This document shows, one piece after another, positions 12,666-35,548 of a stretch of 64,000 nt of DNA; within the stretch, counting starts at the first letter, position 1, and each line of letters opens with the position of its first letter. The notes below the pieces were generated by a model. That model saw only the letters and a list, made by a program, of their open reading frames with translations. It had not been told where the DNA came from and did not search any database. The position numbers and the translations under genes were made by a program. Origin of the DNA: Tetrapisispora phaffii CBS 4417 (Eukaryota; Ascomycota; Saccharomycetes; Saccharomycetales; Saccharomycetaceae); contig NC_016525.1 of the NCBI RefSeq assembly GCF_000236905.1, positions 682,001 to 746,000 on the forward strand, written 5' to 3'.

Positions 12666-14483
12666 ATGGCTAAAGCTTACAATACACCCATGAATGCGGA
12701 TACCCTAGGTGATCTGATAGATGACTTTCCCGTGGATGTAAGAGTTTCCATCAGTACGTTGTCTTCCTTGGATAATGTTTCAAATCAACTGCTATCTATT
12801 ATATCATCGGATTCCTTTAATTCAGAAACGTATCTGCTTTTTAATCCAAGAAATGTGAATTCAAGGATTCCAATGGCAATCAAAAGTTTCCATAGTTTAT
12901 TGACAATTTTCATTGAGATCTTGAGAGTGTATGGAATCGATAACGATGTTGGTGAATTTAAGATTTTAGAACCAAAACACATAGTGAAAGATATGTGGTA
13001 TCAGGACTCTCCGACTTTGGTTTTATTAAAGACTTTCGAAAAAGATATTATTACTACTATCAGAAAGTGTAATGTACTGATATATTTTTTGACTGTACTG
13101 GGGTGTTTAAATTTCAAAATTGATAAATTGCAAGAAGATTTCTTAGATGTGTTTGCTCCAAATACTTTATTCGAAGAATCTCCTTTTAATATCAATGAAC
13201 AACTACTGAGAAAGCAATGGCTTCTGTACCTAGATTTAAAGACAAGAATTTATATTGAGAAGTTGAAAAGAGTAAGATATGAAAAGTTAAGAGCTGAGAG
13301 AGCGGAAAACCCAAATATCAATCTGATATTTCAAAATCAAGAGGATTCAAATAAAGAATCAGGCCATGAACAAGCGACGTCTAATGAAATTAGTAAATTT
13401 GATCATGTTAGCGAAGATGAAAGATCGGAACTACTAGAGAACAATTTGTTTTCTAATACTTTTACAAATGAATTGGTTCTCAGAAGAACTAAATCGTCGG
13501 CTGATCCAACTTTAACAACATCCTTTGAAAGAGTGTTTGTTCAAAGATACATTACAAGAAAGGCTAACTTGATGTCCTTTTCTAGTTTAAAAAAATTGGA
13601 AATAGAGATTTCAGAGAAGAGTTTTATAACCAATTTGAAAGATTATTGTGACAGATATATGTCTCTAATTATATGGGGCACCAAACACCGTAATAGTAAA
13701 AACCCAATACAGACCGCAGATAACAGTGAATTTGATGAACAAGTATTGAAGGTCACTAATGCAGAATTATTGATTGGGGTTGTTCCATATAAAACTATAT
13801 TTGTTGATAATGAATTTGAAGCAAAAAAGGCAAGAAAAGTAGAAAATGAAATTGAAAGCTCTCAACAAAATGTAGACGAAATTGTCGCTGGAATTGAAAA
13901 CGATACAGATTTATTAGTTAATGAGAATTTTTCCAATGAAAATGTTTCAAACAATTCTACCCAGCTATCAGAAAGTAATGTTTTTAATAATGATGTAAGT
14001 GTTATGGAAAACCTGGAACAACAAACACGCAGTGTTATATCTACTCCAAAAACTGCTAAAAGAGACTCAACTGGTAAGGTAATGAAACTAAAGTCCAAAT
14101 GGTCTAAAACCGAAGAAGATGCATTGGTTGCAGGTTTGAAAGCATTTGGTCCATCATGGGTAAAGATTTTAGATTATCATGGTTCAGGTGGTAAATTTTC
14201 CGAGGATCTGAAGAATAGATCTCAAGTTCAACTTAAAGACAAAGCTCGTAACTGGAAAATTCAATATTTGAGAAATGGACACCCATTACCACAGTATCTT
14301 ACTAAAGTTACTGGTAATTTAAATAGAAAAAGAAAACAGTTATCGATTGAATCAACTCCTGAAAAATTACCTGAAATACGCAGAGATAACACTGTTCATA
14401 ATAATCAAAATGACATGTTTGGTAATAATGTCATTTCAAATGCTGCTTCTAGTGACGCTTCTTCGTTCGATCCTAACCTTTAG
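12666..14483 (+). CDS. TBF1: Telobox-binding factor Tbf1
   Basis: 605 residues (S. cerevisiae 562). Tbf1 is an essential general regulatory factor that binds TTAGGG-like sequences in subtelomeres and in promoters such as those of snoRNA genes. The C-terminal Myb/SANT telobox domain is clear at about residues 476-550: KSKWSKTEEDALVAGLKAFG, a tryptophan in PSWVKILD, then QVQLKDKARNWK as the DNA-recognition helix. The N-terminal helical dimerisation region is also recognisable (DVRVSISTLSSLDNVSNQLL). The middle is Asn/Glu-rich and variable. The frame opens upstream at a TTG; the ATG at 12666 aligns with the family N-terminus. It is convergent with the TAF14 pair, as in S. cerevisiae. Confidence 0.93.
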   Translation: MAKAYNTPMNADTLGDLIDDFPVDVRVSISTLSSLDNVSNQLLSIISSDSFNSETYLLFNPRNVNSRIPMAIKSFHSLLTIFIEILRVYGIDNDVGEFKILEPKHIVKDMWYQDSPTLVLLKTFEKDIITTIRKCNVLIYFLTVLGCLNFKIDKLQEDFLDVFAPNTLFEESPFNINEQLLRKQWLLYLDLKTRIYIEKLKRVRYEKLRAERAENPNINLIFQNQEDSNKESGHEQATSNEISKFDHVSEDERSELLENNLFSNTFTNELVLRRTKSSADPTLTTSFERVFVQRYITRKANLMSFSSLKKLEIEISEKSFITNLKDYCDRYMSLIIWGTKHRNSKNPIQTADNSEFDEQVLKVTNAELLIGVVPYKTIFVDNEFEAKKARKVENEIESSQQNVDEIVAGIENDTDLLVNENFSNENVSNNSTQLSESNVFNNDVSVMENLEQQTRSVISTPKTAKRDSTGKVMKLKSKWSKTEEDALVAGLKAFGPSWVKILDYHGSGGKFSEDLKNRSQVQLKDKARNWKIQYLRNGHPLPQYLTKVTGNLNRKRKQLSIESTPEKLPEIRRDNTVHNNQNDMFGNNVISNAASSDASSFDPNL

Positions 14484-14705: not shown

Positions 14706-15530
14706 CTATAAATAATTGAATTTATTGGTACCTTTAAATACTCTTGCATCCAATTTGATAATATCATGTTCTTCAAGGTACGCATATAATTGGATCAATA
14801 AGTCATCTGAAAACTGAGCCACATCCATATAAAAATCTTCAGTCCTGGGATACTGTTCTACCCTATTCTGCACAGCCGGATGGCTTAGAATTAAATCCAT
14901 TACTTCTGTCAGTGTATCCTCTGTGCATAATTTTAAATTGTTCAAACCTCTCTTCAAATTAACCAACTTTTTGTCATCTAACTTCTCCCTGGTGGTATTA
15001 TTATATTCAATGGCAAAAAACCCAATCAACTCATTGCGTAGTTTTTTTGTATGATATGGAACTTGTATTTCATAATCAATATAATACTCTGTATTGTCAA
15101 ATAGTAATGGATGATCTAAAATAAATGTTCCGATATCATCAAGAAATGTTCCCTTCATTCTTATATCAAATTCACCCCAGCCTACTTCACTGAGTGTATA
15201 AGGATAGTTCTTTATAATTCTTGTATGGTTTGAAAAGCTGGGATGTAAATAAAAAGTTATTGCATCAAATATTTTTGGATATATTGTATTTCTTTTATCA
15301 TCCAGCACTGTCAATGAAACTGTCCAATGTCTCAGAGGAAGCCCCCCTTCATATTGACCTTTTATCCTAGTATTGATAGTATTTATTCTTAGCGTCAGGT
15401 TTATGTGAGGCTATATGCTCATGTCGTTAGATTATAATTAATGTTTGATAATCTCATCCAACCGACCAGTTAGTAAATCACGATAGGTATGTAATAATTC
15501 AAAAAAATAAAACCAACATACAATCTCCAT
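14706..15530 (-). CDS. Diverged tandem TAF14 paralogue (YEATS protein), spliced
   Basis: A second TAF14-like gene just downstream of TAF14. Exon 1 is 15522-15530 (ATGGAGATT), exon 2 is 14706-15410, giving 237 residues. Donor GTATGT, branch point TACTAAC (15469-15475) and acceptor ATATAG are all standard, and the join restores the YEATS N-terminus (LTLRINTINTRIKGQ, then RHWTV). With this model His59, Phe62, Trp81 and Gly82 of the acyl-lysine pocket fall at exactly the Taf14 residue numbers, with Thr61 replaced by Ser and Gly83 by Glu. The Lys-rich linker of Taf14 is missing. The C-terminal ET-like domain (about residues 165-220, GLNNLKLCTEDTLTEVMDLI) is recognisable but diverged. The frame is intact, so it is probably expressed. 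It could be a subfunctionalised reader for one of the Taf14 complexes; that is inference. Confidence 0.85.
15411..15521 (-). other. Intron of the TAF14 paralogue
   Basis: 111 bases: GTATGT donor (15516-15521), TACTAAC branch point (15469-15475), TAG acceptor (15411-15413). The acceptor TAG would itself be an in-frame stop if unspliced. Position and phase (after codon 3, phase 0) are identical to the TAF14 intron. Confidence 0.85.
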
Positions 15531-15971
15531 TATTTATCTCTCAATTTAGCGTATTATTGGTTAGATTAAAGTCTACATAGCTTGATATTCAATTAGTTTG
15601 CCTCCATTTTAGTCTACAGACCATCTTTAAAATATAAGAATGTTTTCGCCATTTCCGTTCTTTAAAGAGCGTGTAGGTTACTTGTAAAGACCATCGCATT
15701 TTCGAAAGCAAACAGATAATTCATTGGAATATGCATATACTTAATTGTTTGATAATACTCAATGTTATTGACAAGGATGTATATTATTGACATTTACAAT
15801 AGACAGCTTTCTATGCCTTTTTTTAATTATTATTTTTTAAAAGTTATACAATACACATACTGATATTCATATACATACATACATACACACATATATATAT
15901 ATATATATATATATCAAATCTAATGCTACAACCTCATAAATTCCCGTCCTCATAGCAATATGCAATGGAAC
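15531..15971. other. Spacer between the two TAF14 genes, with microsatellite
   Basis: 441 bases forming the TAF14 3' region and the paralogue promoter. A CATA/CACA tract turns into an alternating (TA)n run at about 15870-15914. No other gene is seen. Confidence 0.6.
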
Positions 15972-16831
15972 TTACTTAGTGTTTTCTTTAACATATTCCC
16001 AAATGCTTTTTAGTAAACTTTCTGGCAAACTGAATAAATCGATTATGAATTCGCCATCCTCAACGTTATTCACAACATCCATCTCTGGAGTTTTGTTGTC
16101 TGTTACCATTTGAACGATTGCAACCAAGTCATCTTCCTTTAACTTTGTTAGTCCAAATGCTAATTGTTGTAAGTCAATAGATCCCTTGACTGTAGGAGCA
16201 GTTGCAGTCTTTACTTTCTTAGCCTTTGGTTCAGTTGCAGTAGTCACTGGCAGGCTCTCTGTTGATTCAGCTTTTCTCTTAGTAGAAGCTTGAGTAGTTG
16301 TAACTGCAGTCTCAGGAACTATACCACTTTTAGCCAATTCTTGAGTCAACAAAGGCTTGTTCAATGGAATACTAATAACGTGGTCGGCAGTATATTCATC
16401 TTGTAGAAAGTTCAAATCATGTGTTATCTTTCTTTCGCCGGCTTTCTCTATCAAAAACAAACTGATATGCAGAGGGAACCCACCCCAACCTTGCTCTTCG
16501 ATAGTATATGGAGATTCCTTGAAAGTACGATTTGGATTAGTAAATGTAGGATGTAGATGATAAACGACTCTGTCAAAAATAGTTGCTGGAATTTCCTTAT
16601 TATCAGCATCTAACAAGTGTATTTCAATACTCCATTTCCTCATGGGAAAGTTATCTACAGGAGGTAGATCTGTTAGAATATGTTGTCTGGTCGTTATACG
16701 TACGGTTCTTTTGACAGTCTAATTAAAAGAAAAAAATGTGACAGTAATACATTATTGTTAGTAAGGATAGTTCAATTGAGCAGGGGCAAATAACTTTAAA
16801 AAAACAACATATAAACACATACTGCTACCAT
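15972..16831 (-). CDS. TAF14: Taf14, YEATS-domain subunit of TFIID, TFIIF and remodellers; spliced
   Basis: Exon 1 is 16823-16831 (ATGGTAGCA, Met-Val-Ala) and exon 2 is 15972-16718, giving 251 residues (S. cerevisiae 244, with an intron at the same place). Taf14 reads acetylated and crotonylated H3K9 through its YEATS domain and is shared by TFIID, TFIIF, INO80, SWI/SNF, RSC and NuA3. Acyl-lysine pocket residues His59, Thr61, Phe62, Trp81 and Gly82 are all present (LHPTF, EQGWGGF). A basic linker (PKAKKVKT) leads to the C-terminal ET domain (LAFGLTKLKEDDLVAIVQMV to the end), which binds partner subunits. Without the intron the frame would start at a Met 28 residues too late. Confidence 0.97.
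16719..16822 (-). other. TAF14 intron
   Basis: 104 bases with donor GTATGT (16817-16822), branch point TACTAAC (16757-16763) and acceptor TAG. Splicing after the third codon restores TVKRTVRITTRQHIL, the conserved Taf14 N-terminus. Confidence 0.93.
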
Positions 16832-17300: not shown

Positions 17301-18503
17301 TTATGGAATTGCCACAAATAATGAAACAATTACACTTGCAATCAAGAAACTTATTGATAAATTGAAATAAGAATTCGAATTATTGAATTCTTCACCACCG
17401 CCAGTAATATTTGTGATGTTACCGTTGATTGCAATTGAAGGTTGTGGATAGTTAATCATTGTTGGTGTGGCAGTAGTTGATTTCTTGGTCTTAGAAATAA
17501 CCTCTCCAGTGCTACTTGACTTTTCTGGACAACTTGTGGTTGTCTTTGTTAATGTATTGTTAGATTGTTCATGGATCGTTGAAATACTCTTATATGTGGT
17601 GGTAACTGGAACTTTAGTCGTAACAACAATCTCTTTAGTCGTTCCATTTTTAGTTATACTCTTTGTCAAAGTGGTTTCTTTCTCAGTAGTTTTGGTTACT
17701 GGAACTTTAGTTGTATGAGCAGTTGTAATAGTCTTCTGTTCAGTTGTCTTCTTTTCTTCAGTACTTACGTGAGTTGTGGTTACGTGGGAAGTAGTTGTAT
17801 GAGTTTTGTCACTGTGATAGCTTTCGCTGGTATGCGATGTTGGATTGACATTTGAACTATGGCGAGAAGTTGAGCTTTCTTTCGAAGAACTATGTGGGTA
17901 TGTGGTTGAGGAAGACTTTTCCTTGGTGTGTGGGCTACTATGGGAAGTCGGGTAGTGAGTTGATTTTGAAGTTTCATATTCAGACGAATATGAAGGTTTA
18001 TACTTTGATGTGTACGTAGGTTCGTAATCCGACGATTCTGAAGATTCATATTTCTTTTTCCTCCACTTCATTTTGTTTGAATCTACAGAATCGTTCAAGA
18101 ATTCATTAAATACACCTTCCAATTCTTGATACTTTTGATTATTTTGAACATTATTCCAGTCAATATTCTTTGATTCGGGGACAATGCCTTTTAATAATTC
18201 TTGTAAACCATTATCATCCTTTGAGATGTACTCTCTCAGGTTGACAAACTGTGGTAAATCTGGCAAGTCAGCAAAGACAATGTTTGGAACAGAACCTAAC
18301 TTTTCTAACATCTCTGGTGATAAATTACTTTTATCTAAATGTACCACTAATGGATTCCTACCCAAATCATCATTAGAGTTGATCTCAAATCCAACGGTGT
18401 CACTATTTGAATCAGCATTCAGAGTGACAAGGTAATCTTGAGCGTAAGCACCACTAACAAAGGCAGCGAGCACAATGGCTTGAACGTATTTATTGAATAT
18501 CAT
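17301..18503 (-). CDS. Secreted Ser/Thr-rich GPI-anchored protein, Spo19-like by position
   Basis: 400 residues. An N-terminal signal peptide (MIFNKYVQAIVLAAFVSGAYA, cleavage near 21-22) is followed by a folded-looking domain to about residue 150. A long Ser/Thr/His-rich stalk with repeated TTKVPVT and TKTT motifs follows, then a hydrophobic C-terminus (ISFLIASVIVSLFVAIP) after an NNSNS stretch suitable as a GPI attachment site. S. cerevisiae has the meiotic GPI protein gene SPO19 (223 residues) at this place, beside TAF14 in the same orientation. I could not confirm sequence homology, and the stalk makes this protein much longer. A cell-wall or spore-wall role is likely; the Spo19 identity rests on synteny. 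Confidence 0.8.
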   Translation of the reverse strand: MIFNKYVQAIVLAAFVSGAYAQDYLVTLNADSNSDTVGFEINSNDDLGRNPLVVHLDKSNLSPEMLEKLGSVPNIVFADLPDLPQFVNLREYISKDDNGLQELLKGIVPESKNIDWNNVQNNQKYQELEGVFNEFLNDSVDSNKMKWRKKKYESSESSDYEPTYTSKYKPSYSSEYETSKSTHYPTSHSSPHTKEKSSSTTYPHSSSKESSTSRHSSNVNPTSHTSESYHSDKTHTTTSHVTTTHVSTEEKKTTEQKTITTAHTTKVPVTKTTEKETTLTKSITKNGTTKEIVVTTKVPVTTTYKSISTIHEQSNNTLTKTTTSCPEKSSSTGEVISKTKKSTTATPTMINYPQPSIAINGNITNITGGGEEFNNSNSYFNLSISFLIASVIVSLFVAIP

Positions 18504-33600: not shown

Positions 33601-34843
33601 ATTTTATAACTGTTGTGTGGAGAGATTAGAGCGATAATCGATTGGTGATTTCTTACGACTGTTGCTAAGAACTGTAAAAGAAACAGGAATTGGAAGAGAA
33701 GCAGAGGACGACAGATTGGAAAAGAATTTAAATATAGGGTGATTTATATAATAATTATTTTTGTGAAAGGAATTGGAAAAACAAAGAAAAATTTCTTTCA
33801 GCTAGCACTTTTTTTTTTCAATTGCAGTCGAGTTCGTCTGTACAACAACATCATAGCAGAAAACCGCAATAAGTTTGACACTTAGCAAGCTATCTCTATC
33901 TCTAACACGACGAGACATCGGATAAGTCCATGGTAAAACAACATAGTTGAGACATTGACATGCAGCTGCAGCGAGCAGCGAGCAGATGGCGCTGCGCTGG
34001 CTGGTGACACCGAAAAAAGCCAACGAACACAAATTTTTCAAAAACAACAACGTCCAACTCGATGCACGGGAGGGCGATGGCGTGGGCTGGGGACAGCTTC
34101 TAGAAACAGCACGGGATATGGCGCTGTGCGTGCGTGCGTGTGCGTGGGCGCGTGTGCGCGCGCTGGGGAGCACGATAAAACTCCATTTTGTGTGGTTTTG
34201 CGTCTTTGTGTTCGCAGTTTCTGGCGAAACAACAGCAAAGCCGTCCGGGAGCGCAGTGACGGATTGGTCGCGCGCAAGCGGCCACGCACACGCACGCACG
34301 CACCAGGCCGACCGGCCAGAACTACTTTTTATCGCTCGGTATCTTTGCCGAGAACAGCGCCGGCCTAAAACGGTAATGTGTGGCATGCGTGCGTCTCCGC
34401 GGGCGTCTTCGGCGCTGTCTTATATCGGGCACTTGCAGGGAGCCGAGCGAAAGAGGGGAAGAACACAGAACGCCCGGCCCTCCCGTCGCAGTGATGATGT
34501 CAATGCGTTTTTTCGGGTTCTAAAACTTTCGCTTTCCACACGCCTCTGTCGGACGGTGTGGCGTGCGGGTAACGTGGGACGTCGCGCATTTTGTACAATT
34601 TATCTGATTAGGTCATGGCTGCTCGTCACGCTGCAGCTGCCACACACGGGCTTGTATCGATTAAAGGGTACCTCTTACACAAAATATATACAGCACATGC
34701 ATGCAGGAACGCTATCTAGGTGTTACGTATCGGCTGGCTCACACTCTCGTCTCCACCATGCAAACAACCGCAGGTGCAGACGAGAAGGGAAGTTCCCCCA
34801 AAGGGGGAACTTCCCTCTAAGGGTGAATGGATGGGGTTGGCGG
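33601..34843. other. GC-rich spacer between eIF5A and UTR4
   Basis: 1.24 kb where S. cerevisiae has ANP1 and RAD23; neither is found. From about 33950 to 34640 the DNA is strikingly GC-rich with alternating purine-pyrimidine GTGCGTGCGTG and CACGCACGCAC tracts, unlike the AT-rich surroundings. A Reb1-type CGGGTAA lies at 34566-34572. Long open frames exist on both strands (for example 33986-34930 and the complement of 33802-34386), but they overlap each other, are low-complexity and resemble nothing, so they are probably by-products of GC content. The part 33601-33950 is the eIF5A promoter. Confidence 0.6.
34786..34816. repeat. Perfect 14-bp inverted repeat just 3' of UTR4
   Basis: AGGGAAGTTCCCCC (34786-34799) and its exact reverse complement (34803-34816) are separated by AAA. 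It lies 28 bases beyond the UTR4 stop codon and would form a very stable hairpin in the 3' end of that transcript. Confidence 0.9.
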
Positions 34844-35548
34844 TTATTGCAACTCATGGCAACTGTGTATTGTGTGGTAGGTGGACAGTTTCTCGGCGGG
34901 GATCGGTTGGTTTCCCTCCCTGATAACTAATCTTGTTGAGAGTCCAGCTTCGTTGGCAGCGTCGATCTCTAATGTGTTATCACTGAGAAACAAGAATGTC
35001 GATTCCCTGTTGTTTGTGCTCTCGATGCTATTGATGTCGCTCACAATATTGCGATACGACTGCGGGTCGATTTTTCTGCCTGAGGTGGTAATGTCATAAT
35101 AACCAAGAATGTGTGGTGTCAGATCCACTGTCCCGGTGTCCGCGTCCTTGACAAAGCGGAACAACAGTTTTTGGGCCTTAACGGAGCCGCTAGAGTAGAT
35201 GTATATCTTGTTGCGCGGGTCTTTGATGAAGCCAATGGCGTCCGGGTACACCGGCGCTTTGATGTCGCCGCTGTGGTACCCACGCGACCACACGTAGCCT
35301 TGCAACTCTTTCAATACAGGGTCCTTCACATCGGCTTCGACTAGTCGACGGATGTGCACCAGCAATGCGGTGCTGTCGGTGATCCCGAACTTGGCTACAA
35401 TCCCCTGGATTGTAGCGTCTTGTTTGTGTACATTCAAAATAACATCAGCAAGTTGTTCAAGGAAATAAGGGAATAACTCAGACTTCACAAACGAGATGGG
35501 ACAGACAGTGCCTTCAATATCCAGAATGTAACGTCTAGATTCAGTCAT
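34844..35548 (-). CDS. UTR4: Enolase-phosphatase E1 (methionine salvage)
   Basis: 234 residues (S. cerevisiae 227). A bifunctional HAD-family enzyme that enolises and dephosphorylates 2,3-diketo-5-methylthiopentyl-1-phosphate in the methionine salvage pathway. The HAD nucleophile motif is DIEGTVCPI (Asp10, Glu12); motif II IYSSGS and the motif IV region FLSDNTLEIDAANEAG are intact. It is divergent from the cytochrome c gene, as UTR4 and CYC7 are in S. cerevisiae. Confidence 0.96.
   Translation of the reverse strand: MTESRRYILDIEGTVCPISFVKSELFPYFLEQLADVILNVHKQDATIQGIVAKFGITDSTALLVHIRRLVEADVKDPVLKELQGYVWSRGYHSGDIKAPVYPDAIGFIKDPRNKIYIYSSGSVKAQKLLFRFVKDADTGTVDLTPHILGYYDITTSGRKIDPQSYRNIVSDINSIESTNNRESTFLFLSDNTLEIDAANEAGLSTRLVIREGNQPIPAEKLSTYHTIHSCHELQ

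Follow-up and report, generated by a model that had tools for sequence, protein, structure and literature searches.

A 64,000-nucleotide stretch of the Tetrapisispora phaffii CBS 4417 genome (contig NC_016525.1, positions 682,001 to 746,000; the window in the following) holds two YEATS genes in tandem on the minus strand, gene A (16831-15972) and gene B (15530-14706), separated by 441 bp. Gene A is TAF14; gene B adjoins it, carries a full set of splice signals, matches Sas5 best and falls within the SAS5 clade. Our joint reading, to which we assign a probability of about 0.93, is that gene B is the SAS5 ortholog of T. phaffii, that the genome duplication left two copies of TAF14 of which gene A is one, and that SAS5 and TAF14 go back to an ancient tandem duplication of an intron-bearing gene. 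The first-pass annotation of this DNA had correctly recognized two YEATS genes lying head to tail, in both of which a 9-nt exon 1 is joined in phase 0 to the body and GTATGT and TACTAAC signals are present, at coordinates that all hold; its identification of gene B as a second TAF14 fails on sequence match, clade and residues alike.

Among solved structures, protein B matches the Sas5 YEATS domain (7f5m) best, with 81.9 bits versus 69.9 bits for Taf14, and Pfam recognizes its YEATS domain at 70.2 bits. It is 33% identical to the YEATS stretch of Saccharomyces cerevisiae Sas5 and 37% identical to the closest Sas5 row of our alignment, compared with 29% to protein A over 214 aligned residues. 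A protein-database search with B returned 2 matches; a second one, started from B aligned with P0002 and the YEATS stretch of Sas5, returned 108, and a third, with A, 161, of which 120 were listed. Tree rows were picked by hand before any tree was built and comprise 21 SAS5 rows (from the 108, with B included; one of them, Maudiozyma P0015, labelled SAS5 for the trees, is called 'similar to ... TAF14' in its source) and 30 TAF14 rows, namely 26 of the 120 listed matches of the A search, three filamentous-fungus rows out of the 108 and the extended protein of the second TAF14 gene on contig C7 discussed below. The phylogeny that had been proposed as a check on a second TAF14 placed B in the SAS5 clade: when the YAF9 outgroup is omitted the two sets split with support 100/100 and in 100% of 200 bootstrap trees, and with YAF9 included the SAS5 rows group at 99/98 (98% of bootstrap trees) and the TAF14 rows at 80/77. 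Constraining B and A to be sisters is rejected by the approximately unbiased (AU) test (p-AU 9.2e-7). Four YEATS matches occur in the genome, being YAF9, TAF14 gene A, TAF14 on C7 and SAS5 gene B, and no second SAS5 is among them; PMC7254723 gives S. cerevisiae three YEATS genes (Taf14, Yaf9 and Sas5). Two results weigh against the SAS5 assignment: a tree with B outside the SAS5 clade is worse by 17.2 log-likelihood units, which at p-AU 0.073 is no formal rejection, and gene B forms a very long branch, the longest among the SAS5 rows.

The references for the comparison of residues were P0004 for Sas5 (S. cerevisiae) and P0110 for Taf14 (S. paradoxus). Protein B retains the acyl-lysine pocket residues H59, S61, F62, W81 and G82, and its L27, L29, S61 and E83 are Sas5 states, the Taf14 states being F27, V29, T61 and G83; positions 63 and 104 match neither reference. 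E83 taken singly is a weak Sas5 mark, as GWGEF is found in 32 of 34 SAS5 rows yet occurs as well in 26 of the 119 rows that came from searching with TAF14. In S. cerevisiae Sas5, residues L28, R31, W82 and F108 hold H3 A29-P30 while L30 and K64 shape the tip of the pocket (PMC8927147). All four residues of the H3 A29/P30 groove are kept in protein B (L27, R30, W81 and F107), with only L27 distinguishing Sas5 from Taf14, and at the tip L29 is kept and S63 takes the place of K64. The earlier observation that His59, Phe62, Trp81 and Gly82 stand at the same residue numbers as in Taf14 is accurate and is uninformative on identity, the equivalents of all four being present in S. cerevisiae Sas5 and numbered one higher there (PMC8927147). 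Relative to S. cerevisiae Sas5, protein B starts with one extra residue and lacks two in the first loop, and because these differences offset each other its pocket numbers equal those of Taf14; we therefore reject the equal numbering, a coincidence of compensating lengths, as proof of Taf14 identity. The protein is predicted to fold with confidence, at a predicted local distance difference test (pLDDT) score of 89.4. Its C-terminus is short, ET-like (weakly so on structure alone) and devoid of a basic linker, and Pfam BET finds no match in it at E up to 1. The division of labour that had been proposed on the grounds of a lost Lys-rich linker and an altered ET domain does not follow from these properties: both are features of the Sas5 family.

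Gene A (TPHA_0F03190) consists of exon 1 at 16823..16831 (ATG GTA GCA), a 104-nt intron at 16719..16822 (GTATGT, TACTAAC at 16757-16763, TAG) and exon 2 at 15972..16718, which encodes the YEATS domain (Pfam, 90.4 bits), a basic linker and the ET domain (Pfam BET, 23.5 bits against a cut-off of 24.5). The spliced product of 251 residues matches the S. cerevisiae Taf14 chain 5sva_n, among solved structures, over its full length at 389 bits. Gene B (TPHA_0F03180) likewise has exon 1 at 15522..15530 (ATG GAG ATT), a 111-nt intron at 15411..15521 (GTATGT, TACTAAC at 15469-15475, TAG) and exon 2 at 14706..15410; within its spliced product of 237 residues the YEATS core spans residues 28-108 (15096..15338) and the divergent ET-like C-terminal domain residues about 149-217 (14769..14975), all of these features lying on the minus strand. 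Both introns are already part of the deposited models, spliced A being identical to TPHA_0F03190 (P0109) and spliced B to TPHA_0F03180 (P0001), for which the databases give 'hypothetical protein' and a partly shown 'YEATS domain-contain...' as names.

Splicing of both genes is predicted from their signals. The distance from the branch-point A to the 3' splice site is 39 nt in gene A and 59 nt in gene B. An in-frame stop immediately 5' of exon 2 closes the frame of gene B and the next in-frame ATG lies within the YEATS domain, so that the intron would be required, with pre-mRNA splicing joining ATG-GAG-ATT to the body of the gene. The pattern GTATGT-N30-60-TACTAAC occurs twice in the window, in genes A and B, against a shuffle mean of 0.09 (100 shuffles, one of which reached 2), and the 12.1 Mb genome contains ATG-N6-GTATGT-N30-60-TACTAAC 6 times, genes A and B accounting for two of these, against 0 for a reversed-pattern control. 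By eye the two introns show no likeness except for their splice signals. Across the junction T. phaffii Sas5 reads MEI/PHI and Taf14 MVA/TVKR, with exon 2 of Sas5 longer by one 5' codon. Sas5 of E. cymbalariae (P0044) starts MEIPTV, and MEIP also spans the T. phaffii gene B junction; Z. rouxii Sas5 reads MDIPT in P0025 and MDIPTIDV after four extra residues in P0024, and two close relatives, P0022 and P0023, read ...VNIPTIDV and ...RMNIPTIDV. The splice site of gene B is supported by this resemblance of MEI/PHI to other Sas5 starts. Should P0022 and P0023 be gene calls on unspliced contigs, at which the source label lgn hints, their starts would also suggest exact loss of the intron in that lineage.

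SAS5 of S. cerevisiae is not known to have an intron. The survey PMC4202332 covers S. cerevisiae introns with RNA-seq data from S. cerevisiae, S. uvarum and N. castellii, and a SAS5 intron lost from these three species could slip past it. Among the titles and abstract openings listed in our literature search there is no mention of an intron shared by SAS5 and TAF14 or of a Sas5 ET domain, and the search returned nothing joining Sas5, ET domain, Sas4 and Sas2, or T. phaffii and TAF14. What remains new here is that a common intron and a remnant ET domain bear on how SAS5 originated.

The TAF14-SAS5 tandem itself is old and already published: ACR098C and ACR099C are listed as TAF14 and SAS5 homologs with 45% identity, in tandem duplication in both Ashbya gossypii and A. 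aceri, in Table 5 of PMC3737163. In our searches the locus tags of SAS5 and TAF14 are neighbours in all six species with systematic tags visible for both matches, which besides T. phaffii belong to Kazachstania, Naumovozyma, Huiozyma and Eremothecium/Ashbya (TPHA_0F03180/90, KAFR_0G01960/50, NDAI_0E01490/80, KNAG_0A03210/00, HHL050/051 and Ecym_8318/8319), a count that leaves out Saccharomyces, where the genes are apart and the TAF14 tag was not shown. By their systematic names, S. cerevisiae SAS5 (YOR213C) and TAF14 (YPL129W) lie on different chromosomes. Synonymous sites between A and B are saturated (synonymous divergence, dS, undefined), and B and the C7 copy differ by dS 2.0. The shared intron and the divergent ET domain at the Sas5 C-terminus support an origin of SAS5 from a TAF14-like gene that was duplicated as DNA together with its intron, and common descent of SAS5 and TAF14 by ancient tandem duplication is the most likely account. 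The earlier proposal of DNA duplication rather than retroposition keeps its plausibility as the best explanation of the shared intron; the event would be ancient, neither recent nor lineage-specific. In the history we infer, an intron-bearing TAF14-like gene would have been duplicated in tandem before the Eremothecium split to yield SAS5 and TAF14, and the adjacent pair would then have been doubled by the genome duplication, T. phaffii retaining SAS5 and TAF14 in the C6 block, to which the window belongs, and TAF14 only in the C7 block.

The second TAF14 (TPHA_0G01830) is located on C7 (L005:4102-4933 in G000:C7) and has a three-codon exon 1 (MVA) and an intron (GTACGT, TACTAAC, TAG) at the same place as gene A. 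Its deposited protein P0166 starts at an internal Met and counts 208 residues; inclusion of exon 1 ATGGTAGCA and the intron gives 236 residues, with 28 more at the N-terminus. Comparison of the open reading frames of the window with 49.5 kb of C7 revealed five paralog pairs whose order agrees on both sides; they are TBF1-like, TAF14, surface-protein, RCN1-like and NifU-like (ISU-like) genes. Gene A and the C7 copy differ by a nonsynonymous divergence (dN) of 0.21 over the whole gene, with dS undefined, and by dN 0.20 and dS 1.7 over the YEATS domain. The SAS5-adjacent TAF14s (A, KAFR_0G01950, NDAI_0E01480 and KNAG_0A03200) group with Kpol_530p9 at 89/91 in the tree with YAF9, the five-row set being supported at 97/93 in the tree without it, and the C7 copy, Kpol_1072p40 and S. 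paradoxus TAF14 form a separate group (95/83, tree with YAF9). This grouping fits a tandem that predates the genome duplication, SAS5 having later been kept in one block. No SAS5 relic was detected beside the C7 TAF14 (tblastn, 8 queries, 850 bp; best E 1.8).

In Tajima tests gene A evolved faster than the C7 copy with two of four outgroups (p 0.0008 and 0.002; 0.11 with E. gossypii and 0.65 with E. sinecaudum), and we do not claim asymmetric evolution of the T. phaffii TAF14 pair, as the outcome depends on the outgroup. At 0.05 the other TAF14 pairs gave 4/4 outgroups for Huiozyma naganishii, 1/4 for V. polyspora and 0/4 for N. dairenensis. In H. naganishii it is the SAS5-adjacent KNAG_0A03200 (P0193) that is faster than KNAG_0J01480, which makes this pair a better candidate for division of labour.

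Could gene B nevertheless be TAF14 copied in tandem in this lineage alone and since diverged to a second, specialised Taf14? It adjoins A in the same orientation, shares exon-1 length, intron phase and a YEATS plus ET-like layout with it, and bears Taf14 numbers on its pocket residues. We regard this as extremely unlikely given the rejected sisterhood to A (p-AU 9.2e-7), the better match and higher identity to Sas5, the neighbouring tags that SAS5 and TAF14 bear in five further species and in Ashbya gossypii, and the lack of any other SAS5 among the four YEATS matches of the genome; a recent TAF14 duplicate is ruled out by sequence match, tree and AU test. Decay of a genuine SAS5, with relaxed constraint producing the longest SAS5 branch of the tree, is very unlikely as well, in view of the intact 237-codon frame, the splice signals, the full retention of pocket residues, the confidently predicted fold and the presence of SAS2-like and SAS4 partner genes.

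A different objection concerns the shared intron. First introns close to the ATG are common in yeasts, and the two genes could have gained theirs independently, or the 5' end of SAS5 could have been converted from TAF14; the exon 2 starts lying one codon apart and the likeness of the introns in signals only would agree with this. The rarity of the ATG-9nt-donor-branch geometry, with its 6 places in 12.1 Mb, argues against separate gains, and the MEIP start of B, which resembles MEIPT of E. cymbalariae P0044 and MDIPT of Z. rouxii P0025 and not MVAT of Taf14, argues against recent conversion, so that we judge either event unlikely.

With regard to function, the genome contains SAS4 (PF15460 at 1 place, 104.9 bits) and three MYST genes (PF01853), of which two are ESA1 (790 bits) and SAS3 (484 bits). 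The third has KAT8/MOF as its nearest solved relatives (151 bits) and is taken as Sas2-like by exclusion of the other two. SAS-I consists of Sas2, Sas4 and Sas5; in S. cerevisiae it accounts for about 60% of H4 K16 acetylation and limits SIR spreading (PMC8136709). Given the SAS5 identity of gene B and the presence of SAS4 and Sas2-like genes, its product most likely serves SAS-I as the reader subunit; its place in the complex and its binding to histones are inferred by homology only. By homology, the YEATS domain would bind an acylated lysine of histone H3 through H59, S61, F62, W81 and G82, and the ET-like C-terminus would probably dock a partner, plausibly inside SAS-I. One may speculate further that the YEATS subunit of SAS-I is a captured TAF14, an intron-bearing tandem duplicate of early Saccharomycetaceae that lost its linker while its ET pocket persisted in degenerate form, and that joined Sas2-Sas4 by recruitment, and that the retained intron would allow joint splicing control of both YEATS genes. 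The Taf14 linker is described as DNA-binding and ANC1/TAF14 splicing in S. cerevisiae is reported to be Cdc40-controlled (PMC9177701 and PMC2579579, respectively); this scenario we hold to be rather unlikely.

On one side the tandem is flanked by a TBF1-like gene (12666..14483, plus strand) with a TRF domain and a Myb match of 22.8 bits, below the cut-off of 24.4. Both members of this pair have been kept, the C7 partner (G000:C7:383439-385028) having diverged to 27% identity and the TRF domain being found in the window copy; S. cerevisiae has one TBF1. On the other side lies a putative cell-surface gene (17301..18503, minus strand), which we take to be SPO19-like, without a match in the Pfam scan; its partner (38% over 86 residues) sits next to TAF14 on C7. 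The deposited S. cerevisiae protein P0033 (403 residues) has an N-terminus like this surface protein fused to Sas5, which suggests that the two genes are neighbours there too, or else is an annotation artefact. Elsewhere in the window two long open reading frames on opposite strands (33802-34386, minus; 33986-34930, plus) overlap by 401 bp upstream of a gene that is presumably eIF5A-like, and their translations look unlike ordinary proteins.

Our analysis corrects a tempting misreading, in that the diverged copy beside TAF14 is SAS5, a gene of known function. Division of labour between TAF14s is a question for the C6/C7 pair and for the duplicated TAF14s of Tetrapisispora, Vanderwaltozyma, Naumovozyma and Huiozyma. 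The locus also lends itself well to testing where the SAS-I reader came from, as adjacency, shared intron and shared ET-like domain all point to TAF14. Ashbya is a pre-duplication yeast and has one such block, whereas T. phaffii has two. The Ashbya gossypii pair ACR098C/ACR099C is the same TAF14/SAS5 tandem, and section 13 of PMC3737163 is silent on its intron, ET domain and origin. With TAF14/ANC1 (YPL129W) gene B shares the YEATS plus ET layout and the 9-nt exon 1 and intron seen in gene A and the C7 copy, from which it differs by the absence of the basic linker and of Pfam BET recognition and by its place in the other clade. With S. cerevisiae SAS5 (YOR213C) it shares the YEATS pocket, L27 and L29 (there L28 and L30), the lack of a basic linker and the ET-like C-terminus, and it differs in having a phase-0 intron after codon 3, in being much diverged and in still adjoining TAF14.
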